64,000 nucleotides of DNA, taken from Candidatus Competibacteraceae bacterium. GTDB taxonomy: Bacteria > Bacteroidota > Bacteroidia > CAIKAF01. The stretch is from positions 48,655-112,654 of the forward strand of contig JACSSC010000020.1 in NCBI GenBank assembly GCA_014879445.1, written 5' to 3'. Positions 3,071 through 11,973 of the stretch are shown piece after piece (the stretch's first letter is position 1; every line of letters begins with the position of its first letter). The position numbers and the translations under genes were made by a program. The notes beneath the pieces were generated by a model. The model ran no database searches. It was given only the letters and a program-made list of their open reading frames with translations, and was not told where the DNA came from.

Positions 3071-3796
3071 TCAAGAGAAAAATGACGCCAACCTGCGTTT
3101 TAGATACAATAATCCAATTTTACCGGGAGCACGATAACGGCCAACTTTTTGCATTTCATCTTCTTGCAAACCATCAACACGCTGCATCAGTAATGAATTT
3201 TGCACATAGCAAATAATCTTATACCCATTATCCAGCAAATACGGAATGGCTGTTTTGCCTTTACCCTGCCAATTTCCGGAACGATCTTTCCATACATCAT
3301 CAAAACATACAAAACCACCCGAAATCACTTTATCTACAATAGATTTAGAAGCTTTTAGGTGCATATCATAAGCGGCTTGATTACTCAATTCTGCATTTCG
3401 AATTTTATATGAATTGATCGTAGATTCCTTATGAGGCCAATCTGTTACTAAATCAAAAGCATCAAGATAGCATATCGCAATAGAATCACCATTGTATCCA
3501 TCAAGAAAAACTTCACCTAATGCATGATGAGCTTCAAAAGCAGGATTAACACGATGTACAATTTCGGCAGCACCACTAGCATTATCAGCATCCGCATCAA
3601 CCGTTATAAAATGCATTTTTAATTCCTGTGCATAAACTGAAAGACGCGATGTTGAACCCGTACCACGCTGAGATCCCACTTCAATAAAAGCTATTTTATT
3701 CTTTTGACTGACAAAACTGTCGATATACGGTCGGTTCAATAAAATCATCTCATCTCCATGAATCATTGACTTGGGTGCGATTATCACTTCATCCAT
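3071..3796 (-). CDS. SAM-dependent methyltransferase-like protein (class I fold)
   Basis: 241 aa. FIEVGSQRGTGSTSRL glycine-rich motif, acidic ITVDADAD, GGFVCFDDVW. Last gene of the minus-strand operon. Confidence 0.6.
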   Translation of the reverse strand: MDEVIIAPKSMIHGDEMILLNRPYIDSFVSQKNKIAFIEVGSQRGTGSTSRLSVYAQELKMHFITVDADADNASGAAEIVHRVNPAFEAHHALGEVFLDGYNGDSIAICYLDAFDLVTDWPHKESTINSYKIRNAELSNQAAYDMHLKASKSIVDKVISGGFVCFDDVWKDRSGNWQGKGKTAIPYLLDNGYKIICYVQNSLLMQRVDGLQEDEMQKVGRYRAPGKIGLLYLKRRLASFFS

Positions 3797-4725
3797 TATA
3801 TGCTAAGATTATTAATTAAATTTTCAACTGCCATGATCCCTTGCCTTTCTACGCTTTCAAAGGTTCTTGAACCAATATGTGGCGTAATAAATACTTGATT
3901 AAACTTATATAAGGGATGATGAATAGGCATGGGTTCCTGATCTAAAACATCCGTAAGATAAGCCATTTTGGTATTGGCCTCTAACCGCTCAATCAGTGCG
4001 CTTTGGTCAATCAATTCACCACGTGCCGTATTAACGATAATCACCTCTTCTTTCATGTAAAAAAAACGCTTTGCATCAATTATATGACGGGTTGATTCAT
4101 CAAGATTCAAATGAAGAGATAAAATATCACACAATGGGATCATCTCATCGGGTGAAGTATGAAAAACAATACCATGTGATTGAATAAAATCATAGTCAGG
4201 ACGAGCATCAAAAGCATGAACATGCATACCAAAAGCAAGTGATCTAAGTGCTACTTCTTTACCAATTTTGCCAAGGCCAATAATCCCAATTGTTTTCCCA
4301 CGTATTTCAATACCCGTTTTACGTAACCATTCTCCATTTCTTGTATGCTGAACGGCGTAAGGAATTTGTTTGCAGTACGACAATAATAATGCAAATACAT
4401 GTTCGGCAACGGTAGTATGATTCACCCCGATACAATTAGTAACTAAAATACCCAAATCCTTTGCTGCTTTTAAATCTATCTTGTCTAACCCAATACCATA
4501 TTTAGATAATACGCGGAGCTTCCCATTTTTACCGGCATTTAGCACCTCCGCACTATACTCATCATCTCCGCAAATCACGCCATCATACTGATGAATAATT
4601 GGCAACAACACATCTGCCTTCACAGGCCCGCGAATCATGTCAATTTCAAAACCCTTGCTATTCAAAAGGTAATGATGTTTGCCAGGTGTATCCTGAAAAG
4701 AAGTAGATGTAAGTAAAATCTTCAT
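3796..4725 (-). CDS. D-isomer-specific 2-hydroxyacid dehydrogenase (phosphoglycerate-dehydrogenase-like)
   Basis: 309 aa. Rossmann motif GKTIGIIGLGKIGKEVA, catalytic NTARGELID, DVLDQEP and TPHIGSRTFES. Confidence 0.9.
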   Translation of the reverse strand: MKILLTSTSFQDTPGKHHYLLNSKGFEIDMIRGPVKADVLLPIIHQYDGVICGDDEYSAEVLNAGKNGKLRVLSKYGIGLDKIDLKAAKDLGILVTNCIGVNHTTVAEHVFALLLSYCKQIPYAVQHTRNGEWLRKTGIEIRGKTIGIIGLGKIGKEVALRSLAFGMHVHAFDARPDYDFIQSHGIVFHTSPDEMIPLCDILSLHLNLDESTRHIIDAKRFFYMKEEVIIVNTARGELIDQSALIERLEANTKMAYLTDVLDQEPMPIHHPLYKFNQVFITPHIGSRTFESVERQGIMAVENLINNLSI

Positions 4726-4834
4726 AGAAACACAAAATTACGTTTTCTATTGAAATTATTTAATATCATATCGTTCCATGCATATTTATGTTAAAGGATA
4801 TCACATCATTCTTTATTAGAAATTCGAGTTATAT

Positions 4835-5479
4835 TTAAATACGGAGTAGCAATTCTTGAAAATGAATAAAATTACGTATCCTCATGATGTTGTATGATGC
4901 AAACAAATTCTCATTATCCAAATGCTCTCTCAATACAAATTGAACCTGATTTTGAATAGCTGCTTCGTAGTCAGCTAATGCATCACCAACGAAAACAGAT
5001 TGGCTTGAATTAAGTTGTTCTTCACGTATAATTTTTTCTACCCAGTAAGATTTTTTCTCGGGACTACCATAACATGATACGAAATATTTCTCAAGCTGTA
5101 ACGCTTTCACTATTTCGCGAATCTCATTTGTTGGAGTTCCTGTTATTATCCACATACGATATTTTGTATGATTTGCATCCAAAAAATCTCGAATGCCGGC
5201 TACTTCAGTGGCATTAACAACCCCTGAAAACACGCGTTGAGAGAACTCATTGGCCAATTCGTATATTTTGCTCTCATCAGTAGGAATGCCCAACCAGTTT
5301 TCATGGTACAATTTGAACTTTTCAAATCGTGACACCCCGCCATTTTCTATGTGATGTTGCCTAACACGTTCAGCGATTTCTATTCCATACGGCAAATACA
5401 TATCATAAAAAGCTTGGGTCTTTACCTCTAATGAATCAAGAATAACACCATCAAAATCAAAAAAAATGGATGTAATCAT
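4835..5479 (-). CDS. HAD-superfamily phosphatase/hydrolase
   Basis: 214 aa. FFDFDGVILDS motif I, IITGTPTNE motif II, FVGDALADYEAA motif IV. Confidence 0.88.
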   Translation of the reverse strand: MITSIFFDFDGVILDSLEVKTQAFYDMYLPYGIEIAERVRQHHIENGGVSRFEKFKLYHENWLGIPTDESKIYELANEFSQRVFSGVVNATEVAGIRDFLDANHTKYRMWIITGTPTNEIREIVKALQLEKYFVSCYGSPEKKSYWVEKIIREEQLNSSQSVFVGDALADYEAAIQNQVQFVLREHLDNENLFASYNIMRIRNFIHFQELLLRI

Positions 5480-5485
5480 CGTGTA

Positions 5486-6163
5486 TTATTTTTCATAAGT
5501 AGCCCAAACAGTAACCGGTGCTCCCTCAGATTGCACAACTCGCAGAGGAGACACAATCACTTTTTGCAATTGCCTATCAGACGAAAGCATTGAGAGGTTC
5601 ATATCTTCAATCAATAAAAGTTGGTGTGTTCCTAAAAATTCACGATGGGCTTCTCGCCCTATCTCTCTTTGTTGATATGAAGTTAAAGAAATCAGATCAA
5701 AACCTACTGCCCTTAATTGCGGAAATCTTTCTTTAAGAAAATTCGCAGATGAGGGTGCAAATCCCCAATTGTTTTTCCAATACAACGCTTCACTGCGTTT
5801 ATAACAAAAACCTGTTTTGAATAAAATCAATTGTATGTCTGTTGATACTTCAAGTAATACATCACGCAGGTGATGAGGCGCAATCAGATAATTGTCAGGA
5901 GTAATATGAGAAATATCAACCCAATGCACCCTTTCAAAAACAAAATCATCAGCAGCATAATCGCTACCACTCTTGCCATTGGATAAAAAATGAAGAGGGA
6001 AATCAATATGCGTTGCTGTATGAGATGATAATTTAATTAGCGAATGATTACTGCTATTACCCTGGCTAATTTTGTTTGCATACATAATTTCAACTCCAGG
6101 ATTACCACCGTAATTTGACAATTCTGGAGACAGCTCATATGACAAAAAAAACCATTTACCCAT
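5486..6163 (-). CDS. Cyclase-family protein (kynurenine formamidase-like metal hydrolase)
   Basis: SYELSPEL start and SSHTATHIDFPLHF, matching the HxGTHxDxPxH-type metal motif. Start trimmed from 6199 to ATG at 6163 (MGKWFFLSYEL). Confidence 0.75.
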   Translation of the reverse strand: MGKWFFLSYELSPELSNYGGNPGVEIMYANKISQGNSSNHSLIKLSSHTATHIDFPLHFLSNGKSGSDYAADDFVFERVHWVDISHITPDNYLIAPHHLRDVLLEVSTDIQLILFKTGFCYKRSEALYWKNNWGFAPSSANFLKERFPQLRAVGFDLISLTSYQQREIGREAHREFLGTHQLLLIEDMNLSMLSSDRQLQKVIVSPLRVVQSEGAPVTVWATYEK

Positions 6164-7031
6164 TATCTTGAGAATGCTGAATGGTGTGAATACAAGCAAG
6201 AATTCCTTGCCCCATGTCTATGTATGGGTTTGCAGCCAGCTTGCGACTTGATTCTGGCTGCCAGGCATAAGGCGTTTGTTTATAGTGATGATGATAACCA
6301 TCTTTTTTTAAGTGTATAGATATTTGCCCACCTAAAATCTCATTAATCATTTGAAACAATTCCAACCTACGCATACGTTCTACACCTGTAAGCATAAGGT
6401 TTTCGTTGAGGTAATCACCATTTTCTATCACATCTACCGAAAGACGAGCAGCATCAGCAGCATGAATATATTCACGAATTTCTTCTCCATCACCGCTATG
6501 AAATATCTTTCCATTTTGCAAAGCTTCTTTCACAACATGAAAAATATAATTATTTTCAAAATCTCGATCGCTATATACTGATCCATATCGAAGAATTGTA
6601 TAGTTTAGTCCATAGCGTTTATGAAACTCTCTAACATTTTTCTCAGAAGTTAGTTTGCTGATTCCATAAAAAGAACCTTTATCGTTAAGAGCATAAGCGC
6701 TACTTGCATATACAAAATGTTTGATTTTCTTTTTACGACATGCTTCCAAAACATGTAAGTTCCCGATAACATTTAGAGAAAAAGTATCAACAGGAAAATC
6801 AACCGCTTTATCTAAATTAGCAAACCCTGCCAAATTATAAACAACATCTGTGTCCGTGCCGATAGCATCTTCAACTTCCTGTTGATTAAGTATAGAGCAA
6901 GAAATAAATTCTGCATCAACTATAGGCGAAACAAGATCAGCTACTGTAACATGATAGTTTCTATACAATAACTCCTGAACGAGATATGAACCCAAAAATC
7001 CGGCACCTCCAAATACTACAACTTTTTTCAT
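6156..7031 (-). CDS. NAD-dependent epimerase/dehydratase (extended SDR)
   Basis: 291 aa. VVFGGAGFLGSYLVQEL Rossmann, YxxxK as YGISKLTSEK, LRYGSVYSDR. Confidence 0.9.
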   Translation of the reverse strand: MKKVVVFGGAGFLGSYLVQELLYRNYHVTVADLVSPIVDAEFISCSILNQQEVEDAIGTDTDVVYNLAGFANLDKAVDFPVDTFSLNVIGNLHVLEACRKKKIKHFVYASSAYALNDKGSFYGISKLTSEKNVREFHKRYGLNYTILRYGSVYSDRDFENNYIFHVVKEALQNGKIFHSGDGEEIREYIHAADAARLSVDVIENGDYLNENLMLTGVERMRRLELFQMINEILGGQISIHLKKDGYHHHYKQTPYAWQPESSRKLAANPYIDMGQGILACIHTIQHSQDNG

Positions 7032-7795
7032 AATAAAGATGATTTGAGTTTTTCCATTTCCGTTCTTACTTTATCCCCAAGAAAGAAGAAATCCAAACTA
7101 AAAGCCAAAAACGTATAACCTGTATTCACCTTATCAGCAAGAAGCTGATAATCGGGTTGAATAACATGAAATCCGAGTGGTTTTTTACAAGATATACAGG
7201 TCTGCTCCACATGTTTGATAGCGGCTTTAACATCATCGCGATGATATTCACCAGGAAAACCCATGGAACCAGAAAGATCGTAAGGCCCAATGATGATACC
7301 GTCAATACCATCTACCTGCAATATCTCTTCAATATTATTGGCTGCATCAATATGTTCTATTTGGGCAATGACAACAGATTCTTGCTGCAACCATTCCTTA
7401 TACGTGTCAAATCCAATCCCATATTGTTGGGCACGTGCAAGCCCCACACCGCGTTTACCCAATGGAGGATATTTTACAAAACTAACTGCTTGTTCTGCAT
7501 CACTTGCTGAATTTACCATAGGCACAATTACACCATCAGCGCCGGCATCCATGACACGCTTAATGATAACCTCTTCATTTTTGCTCACCCTAACCAAAGC
7601 AGAAACACCATTGTTTTTGATATGAGCTATCATCTGTTGGGCTTGGCTCAATTCAATAACTGAATGTTCAAGATCTAAAGTTAGCCAATCAAAACCACCC
7701 GTACACATAATTTCCACAATGGATTGATGCCCAATCGTAATCCATGAACCAACAATCAATTCATTTTTAAGAAGCTTTGTTTTAAGATTTGTCAT
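7028..7795 (-). CDS. HpcH/HpaI-family aldolase/citrate lyase-like enzyme
   Basis: 255 aa. GSWITIGHQSIVEIMCTGGFDWLTLDLEHS, RVSKNEEVIIKRVMDAGADGVIVPMV, GKRGVGLARAQQYG and IIIGPYDLSGSMG. Confidence 0.92.
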   Translation of the reverse strand: MTNLKTKLLKNELIVGSWITIGHQSIVEIMCTGGFDWLTLDLEHSVIELSQAQQMIAHIKNNGVSALVRVSKNEEVIIKRVMDAGADGVIVPMVNSASDAEQAVSFVKYPPLGKRGVGLARAQQYGIGFDTYKEWLQQESVVIAQIEHIDAANNIEEILQVDGIDGIIIGPYDLSGSMGFPGEYHRDDVKAAIKHVEQTCISCKKPLGFHVIQPDYQLLADKVNTGYTFLAFSLDFFFLGDKVRTEMEKLKSSLL

Positions 7796-8741
7796 TTGAT
7801 ACGAAGTTATTCATATTATAAAAAGGTAAATCCTGAGAGTGAGAATTGATAAACATCCAAGGTTCTATATCGTCACGATTACGTTTTCTGGTTTCAATAA
7901 ATAATTTAGCAAGAAAGGCAAAAAACAAAAAAGGTTTAAAAGGTTTGATAACGGCAGGAATTTTTGCAGCACGCCATGCCATTACAGAATTTCTCATGGG
8001 ATGAATACGATGATCTGCAAAAAATAATGCGCGATCGCGAATAGTTGGTGGGTACATTGGCCTCAGTTCATTATAAGGATCTCTAACAATCACATTGATT
8101 CCATCAAGCCATGTATCCCATGCATGATTCAAATCATCGCCTTTCAAATTAGCCGGATGTGATTTAGTATATCCTTCAAAAAGAAGTTTAAAATCAGGGT
8201 GTGAGTATAAAAAATCCTGATTTGCCTGACGAACATGGTTGTAGTTTGAATTATCTACAACAATAATTGCCTGATCTGATAAATATTTCTTTGACATTAA
8301 CAAACAAACCAACTGACTACGATAATCATGTGGCCCATCAATAAAGAAGATTCCAATTTTTTTTCCTTGTAGATAATAATCGAGTTGATGTAATGCGTCT
8401 TCAAAATCAAGATTAATTAATGTTGTATTTTGCAACGACATTGATTGGATAGTGTTCTCAATAAATAACCTGTTAGTACCGTCTTGATCAAATTGCGTAA
8501 AATTATCAATTCCAAATGTTGAAATATCTTGACGAACTGAAGATGTTGAAATCAGTGAAAGCCCTCGGTAAACACCAATTTCAAGATAACACTCATCGGG
8601 AGTGAGAAGATTAACACAATGCTGAAGAACAGCTAACACTTTCTTTCCTGTAGCGCCTTTAAGTTCTAAATCTTTAACAAGGCCATCATTTACTGCCCTG
8701 TTTATACATTCTTTCACTTCGTGAATTCGTGAATTTCTCAT
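7782..8741 (-). CDS. Class I SAM-dependent methyltransferase-like protein
   Basis: 319 aa. YLEIGVYRGLSLIS, FGIDNF, IGIFFIDGPHDYRSQ and AIIVVDN. Confidence 0.65.
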   Translation of the reverse strand: MRNSRIHEVKECINRAVNDGLVKDLELKGATGKKVLAVLQHCVNLLTPDECYLEIGVYRGLSLISTSSVRQDISTFGIDNFTQFDQDGTNRLFIENTIQSMSLQNTTLINLDFEDALHQLDYYLQGKKIGIFFIDGPHDYRSQLVCLLMSKKYLSDQAIIVVDNSNYNHVRQANQDFLYSHPDFKLLFEGYTKSHPANLKGDDLNHAWDTWLDGINVIVRDPYNELRPMYPPTIRDRALFFADHRIHPMRNSVMAWRAAKIPAVIKPFKPFLFFAFLAKLFIETRKRNRDDIEPWMFINSHSQDLPFYNMNNFVSNDKS

Positions 8742-9421
8742 GCAGTATTCCTTTTTAAATAGAGTGTTTCTGCTAAATCGAAATCTTCCGGTTCATCAAT
8801 ATCTATAGCTTCCATCTTATTCATTTCAAACATAGCAGGGCATTTACCTATGCGTCTTCTTCCAGATTGAGAAAAGGATGATTGAGAAAAGATAAAGAAA
8901 TTTGAATTTTCCTCATACAAAGGAGGCAAATCCTGAGTTCTTATCAATTCATTGGGATTATGATTTACAGGTGTTCCATCTTGCCAATATAATCGGGTTT
9001 GCAAACGGGTAACACTAAATACAGAATCGTAGATGGATATGGAATCAAAATAAAATGAAATCGCTTTGCTTATTGTTTCAGTTTTCAATAGCGGATTGGT
9101 TGAATGGGTTTGAATAAAATGCTGTGAATTGGTTTGTTGCATATCATAATCAATGATTTCGTTCATCGAAACAAAATCGCCACAAATAGATTCAGGACGT
9201 TGTATGATACGAACGCGTGAAAAATGTGACAAGGCATCTTCAGCAATAAGACGACTGTCTGTATTGATTAAAACTTCTGATATCAATTCACAATCCAACA
9301 ATGCATGCATAATGGCATGATACAAGGGTTTCCCAGCAAAGGGTTTTAAATTTTTGTTCGGCACCCTTTCTGAATGTCCTTTCATGGGAAGTAATGCTAT
9401 CACCTTCCGATCTGAATTCAT
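8738..9421 (-). CDS. Acylneuraminate (CMP-sugar) cytidylyltransferase family protein
   Basis: ALLPMKGHSERVPNKNLKPFAGKPLYHAIMHAL nucleotidyltransferase signature, LINTDS, QTHSTNPLLKTETI. ATG at 9421 overlaps the yfhO stop codon (TAATG). Confidence 0.85.
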   Translation of the reverse strand: MNSDRKVIALLPMKGHSERVPNKNLKPFAGKPLYHAIMHALLDCELISEVLINTDSRLIAEDALSHFSRVRIIQRPESICGDFVSMNEIIDYDMQQTNSQHFIQTHSTNPLLKTETISKAISFYFDSISIYDSVFSVTRLQTRLYWQDGTPVNHNPNELIRTQDLPPLYEENSNFFIFSQSSFSQSGRRRIGKCPAMFEMNKMEAIDIDEPEDFDLAETLYLKRNTA

Positions 9422-11973
9422 TATGCTTTTGATTTTTTTGTTTGAAGCCAAATCAAATATGAAAAACCGACTAACATAATCAATAACAAAATACCTGAAC
9501 TCGCCTGCGAAATCATTACCCCCTTGGCATAAGAAGCAGGCGAAAAATCAAATTCAATGGTATGTTTTCCGGCGGGTATTTTCATTCCTCTTAACACGTA
9601 GTTTGCCCTCACATATTCTACCGGTGCATCATCTATGTATGCATTCCATCCTTTGTCGTAGAAAATTTCGCTAAACACGACGAACTGTTCGGTTGATGAT
9701 TCAAATGCATAGGTGAGTTGATTGGGTAAATAGGAGGTGAGTTGGATACTTGCTGAAGAATCGGGAACGGGTGTAAAACCTGAAAGTACCTGCTCATATC
9801 TCTTGTCAACAATAGCCGTTTGTTTGATATCTTCGCGTGTAAGTTTTTCCAACTCCTCATCCGCATCATTAGCCCATTCGATTCGATTCACCATCCATGC
9901 ATTTCCAAATGCATACAAATTAGGTAATGCAGCTTGTTCGGGACTAAAAATATAGTATTTCGTATTTAGCATATTAGCCACTTGCATGCTTTTAAATACT
10001 TCCATCATATCTTCTGCCGAGTTGGCTTTGCTCGTAAAAATTTTGTTTAAATCGGGCATAAGTGCAAACTCTATTAACTCCTGATATCTTTCCATTTTGG
10101 CACCATGATAACCGCCAATGGACTTATGAAAATAGCTTGTTATGCCATCATTGAACGTGCTTACTGACAAGTTAGCTACTCTGAAATTGGGGTCAGTATC
10201 TTGCAAAATGGATTGATTCGCAATGGTTGGCCTTATCAATTCGGTGGGCTTTTTATAATTTTTATCGGTCAAATAGCGCGTATTAATTGTGTATAAATCA
10301 ACAAAAGTTATCGCAATTAATCCAATGGAAAGTACCATCGCATTAATCTTTTTTCGGCTATAAGCAAAGAGCAAAGCAAATCCTAAAGAAATGATAATGG
10401 CTGTGCGTATGGCATCAGCTTTAAAAATTGAAATACGAGCAGTTTCCACAACATCAAGCATTCGATTGATATCTGATTGTCCGGCACCCTGTTGTGTAAG
10501 TGCTGCTGTAATTTCATTTATCTCGCCGGGTTTAAAGAAAGATTGCAAGATACCGGGCACAAGATATGCTATTAATGCCATGATGCCTGTAAGTGCAAAT
10601 ACGCCATACAATACATGTTCATTTCGCAAGTTTTGTACTTGATTTTTGAAAACAGTAAACGGTTGTTTGAAAAAATCTCTACGTGAAGTAATTTCATAAA
10701 GTGCAAAAACGGCTAGGATAGGTACAGTAAATTCCATCACTACAAGAATAGAATTTACGGCTCTGAACTTATTGTATAGGGGAAAATGATTGATAAAAAA
10801 CTCTGTCAGTCCCATATAATTTTTCCCCCACGACAACATCAAAGTAAGGAGAACTGAGAACATAACAATCCATTTAATTGGATGAGAAACAAGAGCTATT
10901 CCCAAAATAAAAAGAAAGAAAATAATAGCACCTGAATATAGAGCCCCACCTGAAGCATCCTGTCCGCCCCAATACTGATCAAATGATTTGAGCATTTCTC
11001 TGTCATTGCCTTTAACCGACTCTCTAGCAGCAGGATGCTCATACAATACACCATTTTTAGGGCCTTTAAAATTTGGTATCCACATACTGAAAATATCTCC
11101 TTTACCATAGCTATAGCCCACGATATAGGATTTATCTAATCCACTGGTTTTATCCGAATTTTCTTTCAGTCGTACCAATTCTGATTTTCCTCGTGTGCTG
11201 TAAGACGTATATTCGTTAACCGGCAAAAGACGGTTAGATGTGGTTACTGCGCCGATGGTAAACATTACACCAATAATAGAAGCTGCTATCAATGCATGCT
11301 TGGATTGTTTTTGAATGATTGCATCAACAAAACGATAGAGAAGATATATAGAAAGAAAAAAAGCAAAATAATAATAAGTCATTTGAGGGTGATTACCAAG
11401 CATTTCGAGCGACATGGCCAGACCGGCAACGATAGCACCCCATATATATTTCTTATCAAAAACAAGATTAATGCCGGCAACAACAAGAGGGATATATGAG
11501 ATCGTAACCATTTTATTAAAATGGCCGGCGCCCATGATAATAAAATGATACGTAGTAAGTCCAAAACCCAAAGCGCCTAACATTCCCATCCATGGATCGG
11601 GACGAAAAGTAAGCATCATCAAATAAAAGCATAACAAGGCAATAAAAATAGAATTGGCAGGACGAGGCAATCCTAATGAAAAAACAGGCGCAATGTACTT
11701 TTCAATGAAATTTCCATCCGGCTTAAATGTTATCAAGTATGAAGGCATACCACCAAACATAGAGTTGGTCCATAATGGCTCTTTCCCGTGTTGCTTTCTA
11801 AAATCCTGCACTTCTTTAGCAGATCCTCTGTATTGGAGGTCATCGTGAGCACTCAGAACTTTACCATCAAAAGCCGGCAATGACATTACAACCGATATCA
11901 ATAAAAAGATACCAACAGCTAAGGCATGAGGCATTACCGATTTCCATTCGGGCATGAATTGCTTCATAAACAA
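9421..11973 (-). CDS. YfhO-family polytopic membrane protein (GT-C-like)
   Basis: 850 aa with many TM helices. C-terminal soluble domain with VVFSEIFYDKGWNAYIDDAPVEYVRANYVLRGMKIPAGKHTIEFDFSP, typical of YfhO proteins. Confidence 0.85.
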   Translation of the reverse strand: MFMKQFMPEWKSVMPHALAVGIFLLISVVMSLPAFDGKVLSAHDDLQYRGSAKEVQDFRKQHGKEPLWTNSMFGGMPSYLITFKPDGNFIEKYIAPVFSLGLPRPANSIFIALLCFYLMMLTFRPDPWMGMLGALGFGLTTYHFIIMGAGHFNKMVTISYIPLVVAGINLVFDKKYIWGAIVAGLAMSLEMLGNHPQMTYYYFAFFLSIYLLYRFVDAIIQKQSKHALIAASIIGVMFTIGAVTTSNRLLPVNEYTSYSTRGKSELVRLKENSDKTSGLDKSYIVGYSYGKGDIFSMWIPNFKGPKNGVLYEHPAARESVKGNDREMLKSFDQYWGGQDASGGALYSGAIIFFLFILGIALVSHPIKWIVMFSVLLTLMLSWGKNYMGLTEFFINHFPLYNKFRAVNSILVVMEFTVPILAVFALYEITSRRDFFKQPFTVFKNQVQNLRNEHVLYGVFALTGIMALIAYLVPGILQSFFKPGEINEITAALTQQGAGQSDINRMLDVVETARISIFKADAIRTAIIISLGFALLFAYSRKKINAMVLSIGLIAITFVDLYTINTRYLTDKNYKKPTELIRPTIANQSILQDTDPNFRVANLSVSTFNDGITSYFHKSIGGYHGAKMERYQELIEFALMPDLNKIFTSKANSAEDMMEVFKSMQVANMLNTKYYIFSPEQAALPNLYAFGNAWMVNRIEWANDADEELEKLTREDIKQTAIVDKRYEQVLSGFTPVPDSSASIQLTSYLPNQLTYAFESSTEQFVVFSEIFYDKGWNAYIDDAPVEYVRANYVLRGMKIPAGKHTIEFDFSPASYAKGVMISQASSGILLLIMLVGFSYLIWLQTKKSKA

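Follow-up and report, generated by a model that had tools for sequence, protein, structure and literature searches.

What product do the nine consecutive minus-strand genes at positions 3071-11973 of this DNA make? The genes lie in a window of 64,000 nucleotides (the whole stretch analysed), where a gene for a NeuA-like cytidylyltransferase stands among genes for an aldolase, a short-chain dehydrogenase/reductase (SDR), a hydrolase, a phosphatase of the haloacid dehalogenase (HAD) type and a dehydrogenase. Sialic acids, 3-deoxy-D-manno-octulosonic acid (Kdo), pseudaminic acid (Pse) and legionaminic acid (Leg) are keto acids found on many bacterial surfaces after activation with cytidine monophosphate (CMP), and they are thought to originate mainly from synthases dependent on phosphoenolpyruvate (PEP). 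We describe a conserved cassette that very probably yields a CMP-activated keto acid, a product common to all readings considered here. More tentatively, and at slightly less than an even chance, we propose that it makes an acidic 2-ulosonic sugar by oxidation at C1 and C2 and activates this as a CMP derivative. The direct evidence is a conserved gene set, intact aldolase residues and NeuA motifs, exchange of the hydrolase fold, and separation from NeuB.

The first-pass annotation had described a nine-gene minus-strand operon, and the open reading frames (ORFs) of the window confirmed it. The nine ORFs follow each other end to end, mostly with overlaps of a few bases, which makes the arrangement operon-like; the single true gap, of 109 bp, separates the dehydrogenase and HAD genes. 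Three congeners (L027-L029) carry the entire set of nine with its order kept, and six of the genes (NeuA-like, aldolase, extended SDR, cyclase, HAD, and dehydrogenase) recurred as a cassette in Bacteroidota, Deferribacterota, Balneolota, and Bdellovibrionota. Taken together, this conservation goes far beyond chance. With the NeuA-like protein as query against a species-level genome collection, 11 loci were recovered at 56-68% identity (Deferribacteraceae/Seleniivibrio, Balneola, Flavobacteria, and Bdellovibrionota), all 11 with aldolase, SDR, HAD, and dehydrogenase homologues close by, sometimes in permuted order. After further genome sampling, with identical copies counted once, this type (clade A, or variant A) comprised 24 loci, not all independent, as they include four from Deferribacterota and four from the window genus. 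The aldolase, the extended SDR, and the HAD were each present in 24/24 and the dehydrogenase in 23/24 (missing in L092). Seen from the aldolase side, the best eight homologues in 396 Bacteroidota genomes all had a 2-hydroxyacid dehydrogenase near them, together with a cytidylyltransferase either of the cassette type (NEUA) or of KdsB type (for L052 and L053, the latter was assigned by reading the sequence). Co-conservation across phyla, rather than sporadic neighbourhood, thus bears out the earlier proposal of a dedicated cassette around a NeuA-type cytidylyltransferase. A YhcH-family gene adjoins NEUA in L014-L017, L022, L054, and L098; this family includes a sialic acid anomerase, and such neighbours are compatible with an ulosonic acid product. 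Spread of the cassette by phages or viruses was considered and rejected: no relative of NEUA was found in viral_contigs, and phages gave one distant match.

The NeuA-like protein falls in the CTP_transf_3 (NeuA/KdsB) superfamily (PF02348, 96 bits against a cut-off of 22.6), and its profile matches solved NeuA structures. Its motifs QTHSTNPL, RTQDL, and DIDE are conserved, with the motif residues invariant in 13 orthologues; the identity of the catalytic residues of NeuA, like those of HpaI, is established enzyme knowledge. Models of particular enzymes scored below their cut-offs, PseF reaching 87.7 bits (cut-off 205.7) and the KdsB models at most 32.3 bits (cut-offs at least 193). On the tree, variant A and a second type, variant B, joined by L054 and L095, formed one clade (support 100/98), with NeuB-linked NeuAs outside it. 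None of the 34 clade A and B loci had a NeuB neighbour, compared to 9/13 NeuA loci outside the clade.

The window genome (G000) does hold a NeuB homologue, which adjoins a KdsC-like HAD on C34 (L111:9518-10941), and NEUA might activate its product, Kdn or a sialic-type nonulosonate, leaving the remaining cassette genes to serve something else. We consider this a very slim chance. NEUA of this clade never stands beside NeuB, the same NeuB type occurs in all order-mates including those without cassette-type NEUA, and NeuB is absent from the cassette carriers G069 and G333 (99% and 98% complete), G412 (which appears identical to the G069 genome), G413, and G415. This two-way dissociation makes a standard sialic-type substrate unlikely for the cassette NeuA, and the genome's own NeuB was rejected on this ground as substrate source in our main reading. 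NeuB also has an alternative partner: an SpsF-like cytidylyltransferase beside a transketolase-like gene on C13 (L033:7505-10214) may serve it. The C34 and C13 genes possibly form a second CMP-sugar pathway of the order. C13 of the window genome further carries a stronger CTP_transf_3 match, read as KdsB. The first-pass annotation had seen no match to sialic, legionaminic, pseudaminic, or Kdo pathways; the lack of a NeuB partner and the low PseF and KdsB scores agree with this. A NeuB elsewhere in the genome does not overturn it, given the dissociation in both directions.

The steadiest partner of NEUA, overlooked in the first-pass annotation, was the D-2-hydroxyacid dehydrogenase. The dehydrogenase-CYTIDYLYLTRANSFERASE pair was the most constant combination, present in 33 of 34 clade A and B loci and in none of the 13 NeuA loci outside the clade. 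A 590-residue protein in L053 (L053:5685-7454; G034 C20) carries a weak CTP_transf_3 domain (E = 4e-5) fused to a D-2-hydroxyacid dehydrogenase, next to genes for an extended SDR, a HAD, a KdsB-like protein, and an HpcH/HpaI aldolase. The constant partnership and this fusion suggest that the dehydrogenase oxidises an aldonate at C2 and thereby makes the acid that NeuA activates. In an alignment with phosphoglycerate dehydrogenase 1wwk, its RGELID, DQEP, and TPHIG segments line up and provide the Arg/Glu/His of D-2-hydroxyacid dehydrogenases, and its relatives are phosphoglycerate dehydrogenase and hydroxypyruvate/glyoxylate reductases.

Those relatives also suit a different and quite improbable scheme, in which the dehydrogenase and the HAD turn 3-phosphoglycerate into hydroxypyruvate. 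The aldolase would then combine this with an aldehyde, and the resulting 3-hydroxy-2-ulosonate would go to NeuA. A hydroxyketoacid aldolase is among the solved homologues of the aldolase, and the dehydrogenase, HAD, and aldolase genes adjoin in L055/L056. Yet the scheme leaves the lactonase and the SDR unexplained, and variant B keeps the dehydrogenase without an aldolase.

Variant B, a sister type carried by alphaproteobacterial plasmids and by other genomes, was represented by 10 loci. NEUA and the dehydrogenase were present in all 10 (about 4 kb apart in L104), the aldolase and the HAD in none. A classical SDR, glucose-1-dehydrogenase-like, took the place of the extended SDR in 7/10 loci; the top model for the SDR of L105 was glucose 1-dehydrogenase (185 bits, under the cut-off of 215). 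Judged by these gene families, variant B can run from a sugar to a CMP-ulosonate without further enzymes.

The hydrolase position, whose lactonase-like behaviour had escaped the earlier annotation, points to the intermediate. The cyclase protein carries HTATHIDFPLH, a metal motif of the HxxTHxDxPxH type that aligned with kynurenine formamidase, and it falls in PF04199; against the arylformamidase equivalog it scored 53.6 bits (cut-off 223). Between the SDR and the HAD, 22 of the 24 clade-A loci encode a hydrolase, which is a cyclase in 17 and a 6-phosphogluconolactonase in five (L018, L021, L022, L051, and L098), never both. For the L018 6-phosphogluconolactonase, the TIGR01198 equivalog score is 167 bits, above the cut-off of 124. 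Carriers of the two hydrolases are intermixed on the NEUA tree, so the exchange probably occurred more than once. Five of the 10 variant-B loci have a hydrolase as well: SMP-30/gluconolactonase in L047 and L049, a UlaG-like MBL fold in L094 and L105 (best NCBIfam model for L094 ascorbate-6-phosphate lactonase, below cut-off; L105 assigned by Pfam), and a cyclase in L107. One functional position is thus occupied by four unrelated folds, of which three are sugar-lactonase families. A lactone substrate explains this best, and the cyclase-family protein is probably a lactonase. An amino-ulosonate would dispense with the lactone, the SDR acting as an epimerase on a nucleotide sugar and the hydrolase as a deacylase on an amide. 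The best models for the extended SDR are indeed enzymes of nucleoside diphosphate (NDP) sugars and PF04199 includes formamidases, but a phosphogluconolactonase that passes its equivalog cut-off fills the same slot and neither an aminotransferase nor an acetyltransferase belongs to the conserved cassette; we give this reading little credence.

On the oxidative reading that we tentatively favour, the SDR would convert a sugar or its phosphate to a lactone by oxidation at C1, the cyclase-family hydrolase would open this lactone to an aldonate, the dehydrogenase would oxidise C2 to give a 2-ulosonate, and the NeuA-like enzyme would couple this to CMP, without NeuB or KdsA. For variant A the HAD is predicted to remove a phosphate; a slot of phosphogluconolactonase type together with a HAD fits a phosphorylated intermediate. 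The aldolase of variant A would remodel or extend the carbon skeleton, either by a retro-aldol/aldol edit of stereochemistry or by addition of pyruvate or hydroxypyruvate. From gene families and neighbourhoods we infer all the substrates, the sequence in which the steps run, and transfer to a surface glycan as the last of them.

Several observations weigh against this route. No recognised lactonase occupies the slot in L092 and L100 of clade A, recognised lactonases are missing from half of the variant-B loci, and the gluconolactonase and SDR of L047/L049 lie near, yet outside, the NEUA-dehydrogenase unit. PF04199 enzymes are chiefly familiar as amidases, and no close relative of the extended SDR is known to function as a sugar-1-dehydrogenase. 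With the dehydrogenase as maker of the 2-keto acid, the aldolase of variant A has no explanation; with the aldolase in that role, the same holds for the dehydrogenase, SDR, and lactonase. Finally, a genome search of the window genome gave no MptE-like (PF01973) transferase, and a search without positive control gave no protein of the GTX type treated below; the transfer across the membrane proposed in the first-pass annotation was not borne out.

The aldolase is central to a Kdo-like alternative, which we regard as unlikely though a serious contender. Here the HpcH/HpaI enzyme adds pyruvate to an aldose phosphate, the HAD dephosphorylates the resulting 3-deoxy-2-ulosonate, and NeuA activates it, in parallel to KdsA/KdsC/KdsB; the SDR, hydrolase, and dehydrogenase would be tailoring enzymes that, for instance, oxidise the far end of the sugar to a second carboxylate via a lactone. 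The universal presence of aldolase and HAD in clade A agrees with this, as does the company of a cytidylyltransferase and a 2-hydroxyacid dehydrogenase around all eight best Bacteroidota aldolase homologues. The catalytic and metal residues of the aldolase are intact: the equivalents of HpaI H45, R70, D84, E149, and D175 are invariant in 10 homologues, which together with the family score places it in HpcH/HpaI class II. Its closest solved structures are YfaU/GarL/HpaI, and it scored 179.7 bits against the HpaI equivalog (cut-off 368.8). L096 adds an HMGL-type aldolase with a HAD and a distant NEUA. However, variant B shares the NEUA clade and the dehydrogenase and has neither aldolase nor HAD.

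Related clusters were seen in Bacteroidota, where L052, L055, and L056 combine an aldolase and a dehydrogenase with a KdsB-like cytidylyltransferase and L054 has NEUA instead. These four clusters also hold an SIS isomerase, a Gfo/Idh oxidoreductase, a classical SDR, and a methyltransferase; L055/L056 add a transaldolase and L052/L054 an AroB-like protein. The AroB-like protein of L052 scores above the cut-off of TIGR04425 (putative cyclising sugar-phosphate phospholyase), and an unusual sugar, possibly a carbocyclic one, may be the product of these clusters.

The nine genes of the window are listed in Table 1. Pfam and NCBIfam back eight of the nine family assignments; the second methyltransferase-like protein (MT2) had no match in either. 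None of the nine proteins reached a curated equivalog cut-off, the HAD passing a generic subfamily model only, so the families are clear and the substrates are not. Likelier start codons than those of the earlier ORFs are ATG 9421 for NeuA, ATG 6163 for the cyclase, and ATG 11967 for YfhO. GC content is 36.2% from NEUA to MT2, compared to 38.9% for the window. As read from sequence, the flanking genes are housekeeping genes (DnaB-type helicase, MurF-Alr fusion, and thymidine kinase), and no glycosyltransferase is among those adjoining the operon.

Table 1. Genes of the minus-strand run, in order of transcription, with predicted roles.
Feature	Positions	Strand	Basis
YfhO-like membrane protein, first in run, outside conserved core	9421..11967	-	PF09586 47 bits, C-terminal
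NeuA-like CTP:ulosonate cytidylyltransferase, core	8738..9421	-	PF02348 CTP_transf_3 96 bits
MT1, Methyltransf_24 class I methyltransferase-like, accessory	7782..8741	-	PF13578 48 bits
HpcH/HpaI class II pyruvate aldolase, variant A core	7028..7795	-	PF03328 122 bits
Extended SDR, proposed sugar C1 dehydrogenase, variant A core	6156..7031	-	PF01370 (Epimerase type) 138 bits
Cyclase-family metal hydrolase, proposed lactonase, core	5486..6163	-	PF04199 57 bits
HAD phosphatase (HAD_2), variant A core	4835..5479	-	PF13419 62 bits
D-2-hydroxyacid dehydrogenase, proposed aldonate 2-dehydrogenase, core	3796..4725	-	PF02826 173 bits, PF00389 69 bits
MT2, methyltransferase-like, accessory	3071..3796	-	low-confidence model, weak PDB matches

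By their distribution, YfhO, MT1, and MT2 are accessory to the cassette. YfhO adjoins it in all four loci of the window genus and is constant only within that genus; homologues about 33% identical lie upstream of the cassette in L099 and L103, and YfhO also lies near NeuA loci other than those of the cassette (L030 and L035). It was rejected as a core component on account of this variability, contrary to its earlier placement in the pathway, and may be a general glycan gene. MT1 was present in the congeners, L099, and L107, and both methyltransferase-like genes are missing from most cassettes. Between aldolase and NeuA in congener G002, MT1 is cut to a short remnant (L029:8975-9253) and is thus probably dispensable. 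The structure model of MT2 was of low confidence (pLDDT 52.6), its weak best PDB matches being SAM methyltransferases, and MT2-homologous domains adjoin variant B in L046 and L049. Of the acidic, CMP-activated, possibly methylated unit first proposed, the CMP-activated acidic part stands in outline, as a non-canonical one, and any methylation would be accessory. In Flavobacteriales and Oligoflexia, MBOAT-type acyltransferase, SGNH-like, FkbH-like, and VOC-type genes, as read from sequence, adjoin the cassette (L019:5431-11186, L020:2332-5965, and L103:53-5732) and perhaps provide acyl decoration of the sugar.

Other cassette genomes carry an MptE-like protein, GTX, or a family 2 glycosyltransferase alongside the cassette. 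GTX, a family with no Pfam match, stands beside NEUA in L014-L017, L091, and L102 and is also present in L100 and L094. Its model (pLDDT 74.8) gave non-significant PDB matches, among them Cst-II and human ST6GALNAC2; Cst-II is a CMP-sialic acid transferase. Comparison with the MptE-like profile gave 19% probability only. As a lead from modelling, GTX is a candidate new transferase family, perhaps GT42-like. Separately, L096:10371-11948 (G656) encodes a fusion of an HMGL-type aldolase domain with one of MptE-like type, adjoining the HAD and the distant NEUA, and possibly joins an aldolase to a CMP-sugar transferase.

A widely transferred CMP-ulosonate route that needs no PEP-dependent synthase (NeuB or KdsA), extended by aldolase and phosphatase in one branch and leading to a new surface sugar, is a broader proposal that we hold possible, at a chance clearly short of even. 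A mobile cassette that has a cytidylyltransferase clade to itself and no PEP-dependent synthase lets one predict, for several phyla, a further class of acidic surface sugars, if true a surface sugar so far unrecognised in the carrier phyla. The cassette would then be a genomic marker for this predicted class and a defined enzyme set, and it suggests roles for proteins annotated as cyclase family, phosphoglycerate dehydrogenase, and acylneuraminate cytidylyltransferase in polysaccharide loci. No description of the gene set or route was found in the literature searched, most papers behind paywalls being outside its scope, and the pathway can provisionally be called undescribed, as first proposed.

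Among known systems, nonulosonic acid pathways share with the cassette a NeuA-family cytidylyltransferase with conserved motifs and, in some cassettes, a YhcH-family neighbour. They differ in that the cassette has no NeuB-type synthase and a separate cytidylyltransferase clade scoring below the PseF cut-off. The Kdo pathway (KdsD, KdsA, KdsC, and KdsB) likewise offers keto-acid chemistry, a HAD phosphatase, and a CTP_transf_3 enzyme. Unlike it, the cassette has a pyruvate aldolase and no PEP-dependent synthase, falls below the KdsB cut-offs, adds a lactonase-type hydrolase, an SDR, and a 2-hydroxyacid dehydrogenase, and coexists with the separate KdsB-like enzyme on C13. In lipoteichoic acid glycosylation YfhO acts with a GtcA-type flippase and a lipid-linked sugar; here the YfhO match covers the C-terminal 81 residues only. 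As cited in PMC10433991 (Dengler 1988), the capsule of E. coli K3 contains 4-deoxy-2-hexulosonic acid, an example of short 2-ulosonic acids on bacterial surfaces; the comparison made here is at the level of the residue. Oxidative sugar-acid routes (glucose dehydrogenase, lactonase, and 2-ketogluconate; HpaI/YfaU/GarL) use the same enzyme families, although no sugar-acid dehydratase was seen with the cassette. Those routes are catabolic, whereas the cassette is tied to CTP activation and often lies inside polysaccharide loci.

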